DNA from: a virus
Reading direction: 5' to 3' (one strand)
IMG/VR virus record: IMGVR_UViG_3300009180_000235
Coordinates: 1-22,527 of that record
Length of the DNA stretch: 22,527 nucleotides
Made by a program: the position numbers and the translations under genes. This document shows positions 16,094-22,527 of this stretch, piece after piece. Within the stretch, counting starts at the first letter, position 1; the number at the start of each line of letters is the position of its first letter. The notes beneath the pieces were generated by a model that saw only the letters and a list, made by a program, of their open reading frames with translations, was not told the origin of the DNA and did not search any database.

Positions 16094-16705
16094 TTATGTT
16101 CCTAAAATATTCAGCGCTTTTCTATAATTTTCTTCTCTCTCTATCAGTCCAAGAAAGCCACCATTAATCACTTTAGTCATATTTTTAATGTCACCAACAT
16201 CAGCATAGGTGTTTAAATTATTATTTTGCCAAAACCAACATGCAGCTTCTACTGCACCCCTATAAGTTTCCAAATATTCTGGAATCTCTGTTAAATCCTT
16301 ATCAATTGAATTGGCAAATCTTTGATAGTTATCTTTGCCTGTCAATTGTATTAAACCTCTTCCACGATACTTCCAACCATCTCCACTTGATTCGTCACCA
16401 TTACCTAATCTATTAGCATAAACAAAATTAGCAATCATCTCAGGTTGTCTATTATATTTATTTGCTAACTCAGTAGTTGTAAATCTTTTTGGCCATGTCA
16501 TTATCAGGCCTTTTGCACCATAATTTAAATTTTCTACTAATGCCGAAAAATGTCCTGATTCATGCGAACATTGAGCAATAAATGCAGCTATCCTCTGTGG
16601 AGAGTCTATTTGATATTTAGGTAATATTTCATTTAAAGATTCACACCACTCATTAATATTTTTACTAATACCTAGTAATTTTAATTGTTCTGATGTTATT
16701 GTCAT
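16094..16705 (-). CDS. Endolysin, glycoside hydrolase family 19 (chitinase-like)
   Basis: The 203-residue single-domain protein has the family-19 signature FIAQCSHESGHFSALVENL (42-60) with Glu49 as candidate general acid, and GDGWKYRGRGLIQLTGKDNY (108-127). Phage members cleave the glycan strands of peptidoglycan. There is no signal peptide, so a holin or similar is needed for export. The neighbours fit a lysis cassette: a holin-like membrane protein and spanins just upstream. The binding site in front of 16705 is poor, suggesting translation coupled to the upstream gene. Confidence 0.92.
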   Translation of the reverse strand: MTITSEQLKLLGISKNINEWCESLNEILPKYQIDSPQRIAAFIAQCSHESGHFSALVENLNYGAKGLIMTWPKRFTTTELANKYNRQPEMIANFVYANRLGNGDESSGDGWKYRGRGLIQLTGKDNYQRFANSIDKDLTEIPEYLETYRGAVEAACWFWQNNNLNTYADVGDIKNMTKVINGGFLGLIEREENYRKALNILGT

Positions 16706-16707
16706 GG

Positions 16708-17052
16708 TTATTTTTTTGTAATATTATCGTCATTGTTTGGATCGGGAATTGCTTTACCAATTAAAGCATTTGCAACCCAAGCACCCATATAACCTATAAA
16801 ATACCATTCAGTCAATTTGTCATTTGATAGAAGATAAACAAATCCCCATGTGCTAACCAACCAAGCTCCAAAACGAGATAATTTTCTATCGTTTAATTTT
16901 CCACCAACTGTTACTAAATCTATTAAAAAGATATCATTTTTTTTATCATTATTTAAACGAATTAGATATAATGTGCAAACTGCAATAATTATAGTTAAAA
17001 CAATATACATTATATCATTTGAGGTTAAAGTGTGAATATTCTGAATATTCAT
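16708..17052 (-). CDS. Holin-like small membrane protein (114 aa)
   Basis: Three hydrophobic segments are visible near residues 13-31, 61-76 and 84-100, the last two separated by NDKLTEW. The C-terminal tail is hydrophilic. Size, membrane topology and position between the endolysin and the spanins are those expected of a holin, which would permeabilise the inner membrane at a set time and release endolysin. I do not recognise a specific holin family, so the assignment rests on context. The ATG at 17052 has GAAGGTAAA in front and overlaps the i-spanin stop (ATGA). Confidence 0.62.
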   Translation of the reverse strand: MNIQNIHTLTSNDIMYIVLTIIIAVCTLYLIRLNNDKKNDIFLIDLVTVGGKLNDRKLSRFGAWLVSTWGFVYLLSNDKLTEWYFIGYMGAWVANALIGKAIPDPNNDDNITKK

Positions 17053-17633
17053 TTTACCTTCTCAAATATTTCTTTTTGTTGCTTATACCAATCCTGCCAA
17101 GCTTGCAATTTATTAACTACTTCGTAGTAGGTGCCGTAGTTTTGGTTGACTGTTCCGAGGAGTTCAGCGGTTGTAACTTTGGAGGTTCCTGTAACAGAGT
17201 TGATGGTGCTTGGGGGAAGTTCATTTTGACTGGAACTGTTGTGCAAGATGACAGCAGCATTAGAAAGCTTACACTCATCAGTAACATATTTGGTAATCGC
17301 ATTTTTATTTTCATTTTTAATATCCTTAATAATTTTATCTTTCTCAAGAATTTTTTCTACTAAAACGGTATTCGCTTTGGCTGATTTTGCTTCTGCTTGT
17401 GCAACTTTAGTTTCAAGCTCTTTTACTTTTAATAACCACGAGTTGTTATTACTGATAGCTCCTTCAAACCAAATACCAAATACCAAAACAACAATCGAAA
17501 TAATTTGAATTGGTTTTGTATATAAACTTATGAAGGGAATAAAACTAAAGAAAGTGCTTGCTAAAACACCAAAGAGGCCAATGATGACCATGCCATGAAA
17601 AACAAAATCAGGCAACCAATTCAAAATCCACAT
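17049..17633 (-). CDS. Inner-membrane spanin subunit (Rz-like i-spanin)
   Basis: Two hydrophobic segments lie near residues 8-30 and 38-58, followed by a coiled coil (about 64-115; VKELETKVAQAEAKSAKA) and a periplasmic part with a single Cys (121) in DECKLSNAAVIL, suitable for disulphide-linked dimers. The C-terminal region has YGTYYEVVNKLQAWQDWY. This is an Rz-type layout with an extra N-terminal membrane segment. Spanins fuse the inner and outer membranes in the last lysis step of Gram-negative hosts. The o-spanin gene is nested inside it in another frame (17117-17314). Confidence 0.8.
   Translation of the reverse strand: MWILNWLPDFVFHGMVIIGLFGVLASTFFSFIPFISLYTKPIQIISIVVLVFGIWFEGAISNNNSWLLKVKELETKVAQAEAKSAKANTVLVEKILEKDKIIKDIKNENKNAITKYVTDECKLSNAAVILHNSSSQNELPPSTINSVTGTSKVTTAELLGTVNQNYGTYYEVVNKLQAWQDWYKQQKEIFEKVK
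17117..17314 (-). CDS. Outer-membrane spanin lipoprotein (Rz1-like o-spanin), nested in the i-spanin gene
   Basis: The ATG at 17314 is preceded by AAGGATATTAAAA and encodes a 65-residue protein entirely within the i-spanin gene in a different frame. It begins with a basic N-terminus and hydrophobic core and ends its signal peptide with the lipobox LLSSC (Cys24). The mature 42-residue part is Pro-rich (VPVKMNFPQAPSTLLQEPPK), a hallmark of Rz1. It should be lipid-anchored in the outer membrane and bind the i-spanin C-terminus. The fully embedded arrangement is like lambda Rz/Rz1. Confidence 0.85.
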   Translation of the reverse strand: MKIKMRLPNMLLMSVSFLMLLSSCTTVPVKMNFPQAPSTLLQEPPKLQPLNSSEQSTKTTAPTTK

Positions 17634-17634
17634 T

Positions 17635-17895
17635 TTATGCTTTCGGAGGTTTTCTTTTATAAATTGGTGTTAATATTGGATTTCTTTTTTTAGAAACTCC
17701 AGGTTCACCGCCTTTACCACCAGTACCAGCAATTGCTCCACCACCAACAACATTAGTTGGTCCAGCAGATACAGCACCAGCACCCATACCATCTTCTTTA
17801 ACACAATTAGGTACCATATGGTTACCTTTTTTCTTCATGCCTTTGGCTGCATATCCAGTCCAACAGGCTTCAGTATATTGTTTAAATGTTTTCAT
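17635..17895 (-). CDS. Putative internal head protein with capsid-targeting-like N-terminus (86 aa)
   Basis: The start is the ATG at 17895, overlapping the TAA of the upstream gene (TAATG); a longer frame to 17907 is less likely. It begins MKTFKQYTEACW, similar to the two following cluster members and to the T4 capsid targeting sequence. The segment TGYAAKGMKKKGNHMVPNCV has two Cys (11, 31) and is a motif I recall from many marine phage proteins. The rest is Gly-rich (GAGAVSAGPTNVVGGG) and ends in a basic tail, RKPPKA. Packaging in the head is an inference from the N-terminus. Confidence 0.7.
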   Translation of the reverse strand: MKTFKQYTEACWTGYAAKGMKKKGNHMVPNCVKEDGMGAGAVSAGPTNVVGGGAIAGTGGKGGEPGVSKKRNPILTPIYKRKPPKA

Positions 17896-18476
17896 TAACA
17901 GTTCCATTTTCTTAATGCTAGTGCTTTACGAGTAGGTTCACCATTAGGTTTCTTCATGGGTCCTTCCATGCCACCCATGCGAGCACAGAATGATTTTCTA
18001 CGTTTAGCAGCTTTAGAACCCGGTTTCAATTTAGATGGTGGTGTTGTTACTGCCATAGATAATTTAGAACCAGGATGTTCAGCACGATAAGAAGCAATAC
18101 CTTTACGGTTTAAACCACCTTTAGGATCTTTACCTGCTTTTCTTTGCCAAGCAGCAGATTCATACAATTCTTCATCTGATACTTGTTCGAGTTCTTCCCA
18201 AATAGATTCTGGATCAACATTATATCTTAATGCAGATTCTTCAACCATTTCTTCAATAATATCAAATAATTCTTCAAGTTCTTCACTAACACTTTTCCAT
18301 CCACCACCCATAGCTTTATATTTCTTGGATGCCCAGCCATTAGCGTAAGCAGAAGGATAAACTGCAAATTTAGATTTGGCAGCTGATTTTGCTTGAGCCC
18401 ATTTTTCTGGACTGGTAGGAACATTTTTTTCTTCTAAATTTTCAATTTCTTCTAAAAATTGTTTTAGTGTTTTCAT
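17895..18476 (-). CDS. Putative internal head protein with capsid-targeting-like N-terminus (193 aa)
   Basis: It begins MKTLKQFLEEIENLEE. Residues about 24-60 (WAQAKSAAKSKFAVYPSAYA, then NGWASKKYKAMGGGWKS) and the C-terminal GLNRKGIASYRAEHPGSKLS through CARMGGMEGPMKK and RKALALRKWNC are two conserved modules widely seen in phages and large DNA viruses without a known function. They are separated by an acidic helix (EELEELFDIIEEMVEE). Both modules are basic and could bind DNA. The N-terminus and the L-x-E in FLEE fit removal by the prohead protease. The gene overlaps both neighbours. Confidence 0.75.
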   Translation of the reverse strand: MKTLKQFLEEIENLEEKNVPTSPEKWAQAKSAAKSKFAVYPSAYANGWASKKYKAMGGGWKSVSEELEELFDIIEEMVEESALRYNVDPESIWEELEQVSDEELYESAAWQRKAGKDPKGGLNRKGIASYRAEHPGSKLSMAVTTPPSKLKPGSKAAKRRKSFCARMGGMEGPMKKPNGEPTRKALALRKWNC

Positions 18477-19063
18477 TCTTGTTCTTTCTCTCTTTGTGCA
18501 TTACTTTTTCTCAAAGGATGATCCGGGTTCTTGTAAGGTGTTTTTCTAAATCCTTCAGAATCATAATTACCAGATTTTTTCTTTGATATTGCTGTAGCTG
18601 CTGCAATGGCTGCTGCGGCACTTTCTGTTCGAACATTAATTGGTGCACCACGGCGTTCTGGATTCGGATCTTCTCTGCGTTTTCTTTGAGCCGCAGCTGC
18701 ACGACCTTCTTTACCTAAAGCATGAGCTCTTGCCTGAGGTAAACATTTTGGTTTTCCTTCACCCGGTTCACGAGCACAATGGCCTTTGATATTCCCTTTA
18801 GTGTCCATGCGAACCCATTTTTGTTTAAACCATTTCCTTAAATCTTCTTCTAAATTCTGTTTAATCCATTCATCAGGAGTTTTGCCGTGTTTGGATACAA
18901 AATCGTCATGCAATTCTTTACCGGTTTTATTATTTTTTTTCGATATGGATAACATCAATTGATTAATGGATTCATAATCATGTTTATCCAATTTTTTTAA
19001 ACCTTTTTCCAAATCTGTTACGCAACAACAGTTTTCGTTTAAGTATTGTTTGAATGTTTTCAT
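18473..19063 (-). CDS. Putative internal head protein with capsid-targeting-like N-terminus (196 aa)
   Basis: It begins MKTFKQYLNE followed by NCCC. The central module (DLRKWFKQKWVRMDTKGNIK, CAREPGEGKPKCLPQARAHA) with two spaced Cys and the basic QRKRREDPNPERRGAPINVR is a known but uncharacterised domain of phages and large viruses. An Ala-rich helix (AAAAIAAATAIS) follows, then a charged tail. The ATG at 19063 overlaps the upstream stop by 4 bases. The L-x-E of YLNE is a candidate prohead-protease cleavage site. Confidence 0.75.
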   Translation of the reverse strand: MKTFKQYLNENCCCVTDLEKGLKKLDKHDYESINQLMLSISKKNNKTGKELHDDFVSKHGKTPDEWIKQNLEEDLRKWFKQKWVRMDTKGNIKGHCAREPGEGKPKCLPQARAHALGKEGRAAAAQRKRREDPNPERRGAPINVRTESAAAAIAAATAISKKKSGNYDSEGFRKTPYKNPDHPLRKSNAQREKEQE

Positions 19064-19446
19064 ATTTTTCGTAATATCTCTGCGATATTCATATCAATCA
19101 TAATTTCAGATGAATGAATATTTTTACCTTTAATACCTTTTACAACATCAGGCATCATGTTTAAAAACAATAGGAACGTTTTTAATATATCATAATCACG
19201 TTCATCAATCCTATAAAATAATATTCTTGCTGTTGGTTCTGGACCAAAAACATTATTTAATAGAATGATATGATTTAATATCAATCTCTCTTTAAGAGTT
19301 TTAGTAACCTTATACCTACGAAATAATCTTTTTAGATATTTGGTTCTTTTTATATCGCCTTCAAATTCTGACATAAGGCAATTTGGAGTTGTATAACACT
19401 TCATCGAATACATTATGAAATTTTCATCATTCAAATCATCAAACAT
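19060..19446 (-). CDS. Conserved hypothetical phage protein (128 aa)
   Basis: It begins MFDDLNDENFIMYSMKCYTT and contains IKRTKYLKRLFRRYKVTK (about 32-49), LKERLILNHIILLNNVFGPE (about 51-70) and LKTFLLFLNMMPDVV (about 88-102). I recall this arrangement from uncharacterised proteins of T4-like marine phages that sit near structural genes. It is helical and basic in the middle and lacks the MKTFKQ-type N-terminus of its neighbours. The binding site is weak (GAAAGAATAATTATAAA). Confidence 0.72.
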   Translation of the reverse strand: MFDDLNDENFIMYSMKCYTTPNCLMSEFEGDIKRTKYLKRLFRRYKVTKTLKERLILNHIILLNNVFGPEPTARILFYRIDERDYDILKTFLLFLNMMPDVVKGIKGKNIHSSEIMIDMNIAEILRKI

Positions 19447-19453
19447 TTTATAA

Positions 19454-19819
19454 TTATTCTTTCAGCAATTCATCCAACCCTTGTTCGTCTGTAATGGTAG
19501 CAAAAGATTGATAACTGCCATCTTCATTTATCTGATACGCATAATAAAAATAATAATCAGATTCGTTGATAGACAAAGCAACAACTTCTTCACCCTCGTG
19601 TAAATCTTTAAATATGTATCTTGGTAAATTGATGCCATATTTTTCCATTATTTTGGATGAATTTCTCCATCCAATATAAGGATTTAAATAATCTTCAACT
19701 AAGCAATTATCTAAAGCTTCGTTTATTTCTTCAAACAAAGAAATTATTTCTTCAGAAACGGAAACAACGGGTATGTCATTTCTCGTTTCATCAGAAACAA
19801 ATTCACGAAACGATAACAT
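19454..19819 (-). CDS. Hypothetical protein with capsid-targeting-like N-terminus (121 aa)
   Basis: The N-terminus MLSFREFVSDE resembles the pattern of the three MKT(F/L)KQ proteins, with Phe, a basic residue, Glu/Gln and Phe in the same places. The rest is acidic (EEIISLFEEINEALDN) and ends in a beta-rich part (SDYYFYYAYQINEDGSYQSF). The ATG overlaps the stop of the structural-type gene upstream (TAATG). The membership in the head-protein group is weaker than for the other three because the start lacks MKT. Confidence 0.65.
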   Translation of the reverse strand: MLSFREFVSDETRNDIPVVSVSEEIISLFEEINEALDNCLVEDYLNPYIGWRNSSKIMEKYGINLPRYIFKDLHEGEEVVALSINESDYYFYYAYQINEDGSYQSFATITDEQGLDELLKE

Positions 19820-20506: not shown

Positions 20507-21883
20507 TTAAGCTGGTGATTTTTTTGGATTACCCTTATCGAAGGTATCCGGTTGATTTGGACGGCTCTTCATTAACGGATCAATTTCAACAGTATCTCTT
20601 TTTTCACCCGTTAATGTTTTACCTCCTGACATTACTATTCGTGCTGCTGGCTTTTTATCACCCACACTAGCGCCATCTTCTTCTTTTGCTATTTTGGGTT
20701 TTTTGCCATATGTTTGAACTGATTTATCTTCTTTTTCCCAATCGTTTAAATCTTCTTTCATATTGAGATGTTTATATAAAGATTTGATCATTCTAGCAGA
20801 TTTAGACATTTGGCGTTGTCTATCTGTTGTTTCTCCACCATTGGCACCATCACAGGGTGCTTCGGTTGCAGCCAAAGGATCTAAAGTATTTTCACTTGTT
20901 GGTTTGTAACCAGCCAAGCGATCTAAAGCTCTATTCCAACTCTTACTCTTAGTTTTTATTTTTTGATTATGAGCTTTTCTACTCATGCCTGGTTTTTTCT
21001 CAGGTACAACTGGTTGTTGTTTTAACCAAGAAAATACTGTAGTTTTTTTGAGTTCATCAATCTGTTCAACTTCTTCTTTATTTAAATGTTTTTCTAAACG
21101 GTCAATAGCCAAAGTTAAATCATCTTTTTTTGTATTGGCAACAGGTACAGTTACTTTAGAAGGATCCTGATGTAGTTTTTCTTGACGAGCTTTCTCAATA
21201 TCATTGTGTTTCTTTTCTCTTTCAGCAGCCGCAGCACGCCATCTATCTAAAGCAGTTAATTTAGGTTTTTTTGCTTCATCTATTTGAACTTCTTCTTTAA
21301 TCTTTGCTTTACCGTTGGCGATGAAATCATAATCAGCCATTGTCAGAGTTCCATTATTACGAATCTCAATTAATCTTTCGGTGATTTTATGAAGTTCCAT
21401 ATCATCTTTAACATCTTCACGAGCCAATTCAAGTAAACGAATCATTAAAGGAATATCAACACAGATTACATCTGCTTGATCAGTTTCAGATAATTGAATT
21501 TCTTCAAACATGTGATCTCTTTTCCATTTGGTGAATTCACCAGATTTAGCATAAGATATTTTTACATCTCTAGTAACAAATTTAGGATTGATACCTCTAG
21601 AAGATAAAAATTTATCTAATAAAGCATCTTCATCTAAATGTTCAAGTTCTTCAAATTGATGATCTTGTTTCCACTTTAAAAAAGCACTAGATTTGGCATG
21701 AGAAATTTTAGTATCTCTAGAAACAAATTTAGGATTAATACCTCTTGATAAAAGATATTTACCCAATGAACCATCTTCAGAAATATTGGCTTTTGCTGAC
21801 CAGGGATCCATTGGATTAATTCCAACTTTTCCTATTGCTGGTTCTGGATTTGTTTTTAGTATATCTTTTAATTTCTTGGCCAT
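20507..21883 (-). CDS. Virion or prohead-core type protein with internal duplication (458 aa)
   Basis: The ATG at 21883 (MAKKLKDILK) follows the upstream stop by one base; the frame continues 52 codons further but that part overlaps the neighbour in another phase. Residues 40-79 and 89-128 are a duplicated 40-residue unit (29 identities; core SRGINPKFV-x-RD-x-KIS-x-AKS). Later regions are charged and low-complexity with helices (RWRAAAAEREKKHNDIEKAR). Motifs EEVQIDEAKK and EEVEQIDELKK contain I-x-E, the T4 gp21-type cleavage pattern. I recall such features in T4-like marine phage head or scaffold proteins; exact role unknown. Confidence 0.7.
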   Translation of the reverse strand: MAKKLKDILKTNPEPAIGKVGINPMDPWSAKANISEDGSLGKYLLSRGINPKFVSRDTKISHAKSSAFLKWKQDHQFEELEHLDEDALLDKFLSSRGINPKFVTRDVKISYAKSGEFTKWKRDHMFEEIQLSETDQADVICVDIPLMIRLLELAREDVKDDMELHKITERLIEIRNNGTLTMADYDFIANGKAKIKEEVQIDEAKKPKLTALDRWRAAAAEREKKHNDIEKARQEKLHQDPSKVTVPVANTKKDDLTLAIDRLEKHLNKEEVEQIDELKKTTVFSWLKQQPVVPEKKPGMSRKAHNQKIKTKSKSWNRALDRLAGYKPTSENTLDPLAATEAPCDGANGGETTDRQRQMSKSARMIKSLYKHLNMKEDLNDWEKEDKSVQTYGKKPKIAKEEDGASVGDKKPAARIVMSGGKTLTGEKRDTVEIDPLMKSRPNQPDTFDKGNPKKSPA

Positions 21884-21884
21884 C

Positions 21885-22527
21885 TTATTTGATCTTTGTT
21901 TTAGATTGAATATTTTTAAATGCTGAATGAGCCAAATCTTTTGCACGGGACATTGGAGTATGTATTGCACCAGATTTATCTTTAATATCTTTTGACATTT
22001 TTTTCCAACCAGGAGTACCAGCAATCGTAGCTTCATCAACTTCTACACCTTCTGCTTTAATTGATGTACGAGCTGGAGTTTTTTCTGCTATTTTAATTTC
22101 TGGAGTTTCATTTTCTCCAGTTTCTTTCGCTAAAGGTTTAACTCTTAATTTATAAGATTTAAATGAATTAGACTTGCCGCCAGGTAAACGACCTGCTAGT
22201 GTATCTGTTGTAATTGGAGCATTAGATGCTTCATAGGCTTCTTTTTGTGCACCATAGTAAGCACCAAGAGCCATCTTCTTACGCTCTGCTTTGGACTTAC
22301 CAGCAAACTTAGGATTATCTGAATGAACAAAGTCATGAATCCAATCACCAGCAGAAGCATCTTTAGAAAGAACTTCATTTAACATTTCATCCAATTCATA
22401 TTCAGATACATCTTCTTTGTTAAGTGTTGATTTAATTGTTTGTTTCAATGTTCTATTAGTTTTTGCTGTGCCTTTGGATGCAGACTTAATATTGGCTCTT
22501 GATGCCAATGGATCTTCTTTATTTCGG
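21885..22527 (-). CDS. Virion or prohead-core type protein (partial, N-terminus beyond the window)
   Basis: The frame is open to the right edge (RNKEDPLASRANIK), so the real start lies outside; a TTG at 22508 is not needed. The visible 213 residues include GDWIHDFVHSDNPKFAGKSK followed by AERKKMALGAYYGAQ, a module I recall from several T4-like marine phage proteins, then a Lys/Ser-rich part (SNSFKSYKLRVKPLAKE) and GVEVDEATIAGTPGWKKMSK. The VDE-A string is similar to the IDE motifs in the next gene. The stop at 21885 is one base from the next ATG. It is probably a head or core protein; no enzymatic motif is seen. Confidence 0.7.
   Translation of the reverse strand, partial: RNKEDPLASRANIKSASKGTAKTNRTLKQTIKSTLNKEDVSEYELDEMLNEVLSKDASAGDWIHDFVHSDNPKFAGKSKAERKKMALGAYYGAQKEAYEASNAPITTDTLAGRLPGGKSNSFKSYKLRVKPLAKETGENETPEIKIAEKTPARTSIKAEGVEVDEATIAGTPGWKKMSKDIKDKSGAIHTPMSRAKDLAHSAFKNIQSKTKIK

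Follow-up and report, generated by a model that had tools for sequence, protein, structure and literature searches.

Four small genes of a T4-like phage share an N-terminal tag. From sequence comparisons, we are fairly confident that the cluster encodes proteins targeted to the prohead, and that three of them (p1, p2, and p3) are cargo while the fourth (p5) is more like a component of the prohead core. Our computations show the tag, its enrichment, its independence of the body behind it, its co-occurrence with the prohead protease gp21 and the capsid protein gp23, its cleavage motif, and its correlation with virion proteomes. From these, we infer that these particular proteins are targeted and cleaved, along with ejection and a cargo function.

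We propose that the first ~10 residues would act as a capsid-targeting sequence, with the aromatic residues at positions 4 and 7 docking the protein in the prohead core. gp21 would then cleave after [LIV]-x-E at residues 8-10. The tag-free bodies of p1, p2, and p3, which are basic, would remain alongside the DNA inside the head and would probably be ejected with it. These bodies are small modules on linkers that bear [LI]-x-E, and gp21 may cut there too, giving several peptides per gene. p5 bears the same address, but it is acidic and has a high density of these sites, and is more likely a core or scaffold component that is degraded.

The gene cluster

The window that we analyzed is a whole IMG/VR record (IMGVR_UViG_3300009180_000235; 22,527 bases) and is a fragment. 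It has a primase, nrdA/nrdB-like genes, and DUF7207, and part of it matches the cytidylyltransferase-to-primase-nrdA-nrdB block of cyanophages. The virus is a relative of phage T4 that infects aquatic bacteria. From 20460 to 17635 on the minus strand, six genes run in the same direction, with junctions that mostly touch or overlap. The four N-termini of a shared type that an earlier note had described at 19819-17635 (MKTFKQYTEA in p1, MKTLKQFLEE in p2, MKTFKQYLNE in p3, and MLSFREFVSDE in p5) are all present and all on the minus strand. The features are listed below, with a slash at each predicted cut.

17895-17635, minus strand: p1 (MKTFKQYTEACW, 86 amino acids); tag, CWTGY module, and Gly-rich, gp23-arm-like basic tail; charge +10
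17869..17895, minus strand: p1 tag MKTFKQYTE, with E at position 9, then A
17794..17802, minus strand: predicted gp21-type site VKE34/DGM in p1, between the CWTGY and Gly-rich modules
18476-17895, minus strand: p2 (MKTLKQFLEEIE, 193 amino acids); PTSPEKW/YPSAYANGW module and DUF6321 module
18447..18476, minus strand: p2 tag MKTLKQFLEE
18429..18437, minus strand: predicted site LEE16/KNVPTSPEKW in p2
18159..18167, minus strand: predicted site LYE106/SAAWQRK in p2, ahead of DUF6321
19063-18473, minus strand: p3 (MKTFKQYLNENC, 196 amino acids); basic (+14), with phrog_727-type modules
19034..19063, minus strand: p3 tag MKTFKQYLNE
18845..18853, minus strand: predicted site LEE73/DLRKWFKQKW, the only [LIVMF]xE in the body of p3
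19446-19060, minus strand: p4, DUF7207 (phrog_407); untagged, inside the cluster, conserved in cyanophages
19819-19454, minus strand: p5 (MLSFREFVSDET, 121 amino acids); tagged, acidic, prohead-core-like
19787..19819, minus strand: p5 tag MLSFREFVSDE, with D at position 10, where the majority of its homologs end an [IV]xE (8-10)

In the list of open reading frames, p1 begins four codons too far upstream, as MELLMKTF. The start codon of MKTF overlaps the stop codon of p2 (TAATG). Given this overlap, and since the start is conserved in relatives, the MKTF tag is the true N-terminus of p1.

The pattern M..[FLY][KR][QE][FY] begins 4 of the 42 genes in the window, versus 0.009 expected from shuffling residues (20,000 draws, with a maximum of 1). 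The tags are written with differing synonymous codons (TTT/TTC, TAT/TAC), so the likeness resides in the peptide.

DUF6321 in p2 (Pfam PF19846, E = 8.3e-22) is, with a weak DUF5872, the only recognized domain in the tagged proteins of the window. The AF2 model of p2 has low confidence (67.5, with pLDDT <50 at residues 100-105) and was used for linker positions only. The predicted fold of p5 (pLDDT 86) has no significant match in the PDB; its matches are uncharacterized phage proteins (E down to 2.5e-7). One match to p5, in a 1134-aa protein named for the anti-CBASS protein Acb1, was weak (E = 8e-3) and was set aside.

Directly downstream of the tagged cluster, at 17049-17633 and 16094-16705, are a candidate Rz-like spanin (phrog_4952, and weakly phrog_312) and a chitinase/GH19-type endolysin, the latter called by reading the sequence.

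The tag resembles the capsid-targeting sequence of T4

The earlier note had read the tag as a capsid-targeting sequence. This reading is supported by the tag's match to the T4 internal proteins IPI, IPII, and IPIII, by the dozens of bodies that it heads, and by its co-occurrence with gp21 and gp23. It gains further support from the end of the tag, which matches the L-x-E of relatives' gp23, and from a rule based on T4 that picks mostly virion-detected proteins in three cyanophages.

In T4, IPII and IPIII begin with MKTYQEFIAEA, and IPI begins with MKTFKEFTSTTT...ITEA (MKTFKEF). The first ten residues of IPIII suffice for entry into the head; residues 4 and 7 are for targeting and residues 8 and 10 for processing, and with D10, targeting is kept but processing is blocked (PMC9026906). 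gp21 cleaves after L/I-x-E (PMC9026906). At the targeting positions, p1 and p3 have F4 and Y7, p5 has F4 and F7, and p2 has L4 and F7. (A homolog of p2, L082, has F4.) The processing residues, [LI]8-x-E10, are present in p2 (LEE) and p3 (LNE). p1 has YTE/A at positions 7-9 instead, and p5 has V8 and D10, so processing of both is uncertain. Homologs of p1 have the tags MQTFKQFLEA, MKTFKQHVEA, MKSFKELREA, and MKTLKQFREA. The tags of p5 homologs mostly fit the layout (MLKFGEFIRE, MIKFREFISE, MLGFKQFVVE, and MKQFREFIRE; one is MIEFRHYISK), which indicates that the tag belongs to the p5 family too.

Overall, the first seven residues are nearly those of IPI, and the F/Y4, F/Y7, [IL]8, E10 layout is that of IPII and IPIII. 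As in T4, the bodies are basic and varied behind one tag. In contrast to T4, the window's bodies matched no T4 internal protein family, each protein combines several modules separated by L-x-E sites, and enzymes as well as an acidic protein of core-like character also bear the tag.

One tag, many bodies

We scanned IMG/VR with a back-translated, ATG-anchored version of the tag, and with a control that had the same residues in permuted order. The tag pattern was found in at least 120 stretches, versus 6 for the permuted-codon control. Among the matches listed (80 loci), 85 of 86 start an open reading frame of at least 40 amino acids or one that runs off the contig. In loci that were fetched by body rather than by tag (L001-L080), the core peptide is directly after Met in 16 of 18 occurrences; of the remaining two, one comes after Met-Ile close to the start of a reading frame.

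In the loci that we collected, 197 tagged proteins form 58 clusters of bodies. Tagged bodies include ART-PolyVal (E = 9.7e-24), cytidylyltransferase, HD_4, adenylate kinase, methyltransferase, and DUF6267, and the second-largest cluster is similar to phrog_14802, "virion structural protein" (E = 2.3e-4). DUF6321 is found directly behind the tag (MKTLKQFIESAAW, MKSFKEFLNESSAW, and MLKFKQFLDESAAW) or behind other modules. The 58 clusters show one tag on otherwise unrelated bodies. The bodies of p1, p2, and p3 are not simply unrelated, since they are modules reshuffled from a single pool (fused in phrog_727). At position 11, which was free in our pattern, 79 of 162 tagged proteins have S or A, versus a background of 14%; with one representative per cluster, this becomes 23 of 58.

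Could the common N-terminus be a relic of recombination or duplication at gene starts, or an element for starting translation, with no role in targeting? The genes are adjacent, they overlap by TAATG or ATGA, and they draw on one pool of modules; also, similar DNA at the start could have been copied along with the ribosome-binding region. We nevertheless consider this very improbable. The codons of the tags differ by synonymous changes, whereas residue 9 is unconstrained. Most members of the p5 family keep F4, [FY]7, [ILV]8, and E10 even though their bodies are only 30-58% identical. And tagged genes are scattered in genomes and correlate with gp21 and with detection in virions.

On other virus contigs (L304:6505-9422, L244:2357-3910, L218, L246, L302, and L321), two to four tagged genes whose bodies are unrelated stand in a row; these groups could be cargo islands. 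Among their products are a predicted ADP-ribosyltransferase (L321) and a HAD-like protein (L244).

The prohead protease and capsid protein in relatives

gp21 and gp23 were seen in relatives only. A search of the 22.5-kb window, which is a fragment, did not find gp21. Of 29 records from relatives, 12 have a gp21-type protease, among them all nine that reach 107 kb or more. The protease is also present in 13 of 16 contigs of at least 44 kb that were selected by the tag, but in just 6 of 20 control contigs, which were picked by an unrelated ATG pattern (P = 0.003, Fisher exact test). Of 14 contigs selected by the tag, 12 have gp23. Where T4 gp23 is cut during maturation, the relatives' gp23 has L-x-E (for example, QLNE/T, FLTE/A, and YLAE/S).

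Several small proteins, some of them tagged, imitate the N-terminal arm of mature gp23 (GGF..GP.AG[YF]DP..): L202, L247, L277, SSM1_197, S-SCSM1_97, and S-CREM2 gp160. The best matches to an HMM of the gp23 arm, other than gp23 itself, are SSM1_197 from phage S-SM1 (L325:22806-23354; E = 1.6e-4) and the tagged L202 (E = 3.4e-4). Two of these small proteins are virion proteins: S-SCSM1_97, by its flag, and S-CREM2 gp160, by its listing. The tail of p1 (GPTNVVGGG...RNPIL) weakly resembles the arm (blastp E = 0.004 to the S-CREM2 MCP), but the HMM did not reach p1.

Tagged proteins in cyanophage virions

For three cyanophages (S-CREM2, S-SM1, and S-SCSM1), purified particles have been studied by mass spectrometry. 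The rule from T4 was F/Y/L4, F/Y7, LIVMF8, and E10, with position 4 widened to admit L. In the three genomes, it picks 9 open reading frames, of which 7 are virion-detected. In S-CREM2, 6 of 217 annotated proteins fit the rule and 5 of the 6 are in the published virion list (P = 0.003; PMC10665884): a SAM hydrolase, an APH-like kinase, a cytidylyltransferase, gp13, and gp136. In S-SM1, the one fitting start genome-wide is that of the cytidyltransferase T4-GC190, which has been reported from virions (PMC3037559). In S-SCSM1, two proteins fit at their annotated starts: the NMNAT, which is a virion protein (PMC9602691), and SSCSM1_30 (MKTFKQFMSE), which is unflagged. (The S-SCSM1 flags are GenBank notes, which we took to mark detection by mass spectrometry.) We had seen the N-termini from S-CREM2 and S-SM1 before counting, so this is a strong correlation and not a blind test.

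The tags of these virion enzymes (MKNFSSFLTEA, MKSFLQFLKEA, MKKFSAFLNEA, MKDFDSFLEE, and MKRFDAFLTE) have the same layout as those in the window, and the enzymes (NMNAT/cytidylyltransferase, SAM hydrolase, and APH-like kinase) were found in purified virions. In contrast, the bodies in the window are small modules and not those enzymes. Virion proteins that share the modules of p1, p2, and p3 are S-CREM2 gp137 (which matches p2 with E = 8e-15 and p3 with E = 2e-6), S-CREM2 gp160 (whose modules resemble those of p1 and p3), and S-SCSM1_29, which has DUF6321. These three lack an N-terminal tag, so the tag is not required to package such modules. Virion proteins also come from the block that is syntenic with the window (S-SCSM1 89-93, 95, and 97; S-CREM2 154, 155, 156, and 160).

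A caveat is that the proteomics authors warn of carry-over in CsCl preparations (PMC10665884, PMC9602691). In the sections considered, the three papers do not propose a packaging signal and they leave carry-over open (PMC10665884, PMC9602691, PMC3037559). In proteomic studies of cyanophages, purified particles have repeatedly yielded NMNAT, SAM hydrolase, and kinases, which the authors could not assign to packaging or to carry-over. The T4-type tag on these enzymes offers a mechanism for packaging and a sequence test. If this is right, the tag would be a search key for proteins, mostly without an assigned function, that aquatic viruses of this abundant group deliver to their hosts.

In S-CREM2 gp12 (OR473000:7704-10313, minus strand), a virion-detected Cas9-like protein, a tag-like RFASFMAEAA lies ~18 residues in. 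This suggests that the annotated start is too early or that the tag is offset. By eye, tagged bodies that begin with SSLSRIKSKADKGG... (L255, L262, L279, and L235) resemble the N-terminal part of the S-CREM2 virion SAM hydrolase gp6.

Cargo or prohead core

The bodies differ in how many [LI]xE sites they contain: none in p1, one in p3, six in p2 (mostly in its acidic middle), and nine in p5. T4 IPI-III* have none each. p5 has a charge of -17 and 8.1 such sites per 100 residues, versus 3.5-5.9 for T4 gp22/gp67/gp68. This makes p5 look like a prohead core protein that is degraded rather than injected. The small basic modules of p1, p2, and p3 would fit association with DNA. The proposal that all four proteins are packaged and injected therefore has to be narrowed: we read p1, p2, and p3 as cargo, but not p5.

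Alternatively, the tag might be just a handle for binding the core, with all of the tagged proteins being core components that gp21 degrades. p5 resembles T4 gp22/gp67/gp68 in acidity and site density, and p2 has its six sites. In relatives, a tagged gene lies between gp20 and gp21, which is the place of gp67/gp68 in T4 (L189:7014, MKSFKEFISES; L175, MKSLKEFVAS; G004 and G007). But p1 and p3 are basic and contain almost no sites, like T4 IPI-III*, and enzymes are tagged (ART, SAM hydrolase, kinase, and cytidylyltransferase), several of them present in mature virions. We think that a core role for all of the tagged proteins is unlikely, and we prefer cargo for p1, p2, and p3.

T4 Alt and the core proteins gp22, gp67, and gp68 are a further close comparison. 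Those are also head-targeted gp21 substrates; Alt is a packaged enzyme, and we found ART-PolyVal proteins with the tag. Unlike the tagged proteins, the T4 core proteins lack this capsid-targeting sequence, and we recognized no Alt-like gene in the window.

We found no support for the suggestion that the cargo counters host defenses. Scans of eight cluster proteins with PADLOC and with NCBIfam gave no defense family (NCBIfam gave one match below its cut-off), and certain cyanophage proteins that share these modules reach the virion without the tag.

Modules and possible internal cleavage sites

At module boundaries without an adjacent tag, [LIVMF]xE is present in 121 of 145 contexts, versus a background of ~10%. 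By the module that follows, the counts are 41 of 51 for DUF6321, 21 of 33 for CWxGY, 31 of 32 for DLRxWF, 24 of 25 for KNxPTxPEKW, and 4 of 4 for the Gly-rich module. Since the boundaries carry the same type of L/I-x-E as the tag, we suggest that gp21 cuts modular tagged proteins into separate peptides. More broadly, in T4-like phages of aquatic bacteria, the prohead protease may both remove the tag and cut modular polyproteins into small DNA-associated peptides, so that one gene yields several pieces of cargo, and the common L/I-x-E linker lets modules shuffle between genes and tags. We view this as an even bet; if true, it adds a new role for a prohead protease.

Nearly as plausible is that the L-x-E between modules is part of a domain or of a generic acidic linker, and that gp21 removes the tag alone. 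The linkers are acidic (E or D is common at P2 and P4-P6), and an unfiltered test across all body families, in which module starts are uncertain, did not separate LxE from ExL (357 versus 339 of 667). On the other hand, E is strongly preferred over D at P1 (LxD is at only 7 of the 145 boundaries), and the motif precedes five different modules and also ends tags. Furthermore, DUF6321 proteins that stand alone and have their initial Met at the boundary (MAKTAAW or MVKTAAW) lack the motif, and on five contigs with such proteins (99.9, 88, 70.6, 36.9, and 36.6 kb), no gp21 or gp23 was seen.

Polyvalent proteins are multi-module phage proteins for which packaging and injection have been predicted (Iyer, Burroughs, Aravind 2017, PMC5512222). 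The proteins described here are also multi-module, and one tagged ART-PolyVal protein was found. However, those in the window lack a polyvalent effector domain, and their modules appear to be separable by gp21-type sites.

The window encodes a further modular protein, p7 (20507-21886), with the linkers VQIDE/AKK and EQIDE/LKK; its module CVDIPLMIRLLELAREDV resembles a separate tagged gene in L017. In two large contigs that lack gp21 and gp23 (L049 and L057), the reading frame of DUF6321 is interrupted at about the same Gly-rich position, after which another frame carries on from a Met inside the gene; this is either a programmed frameshift or a sequencing artefact.
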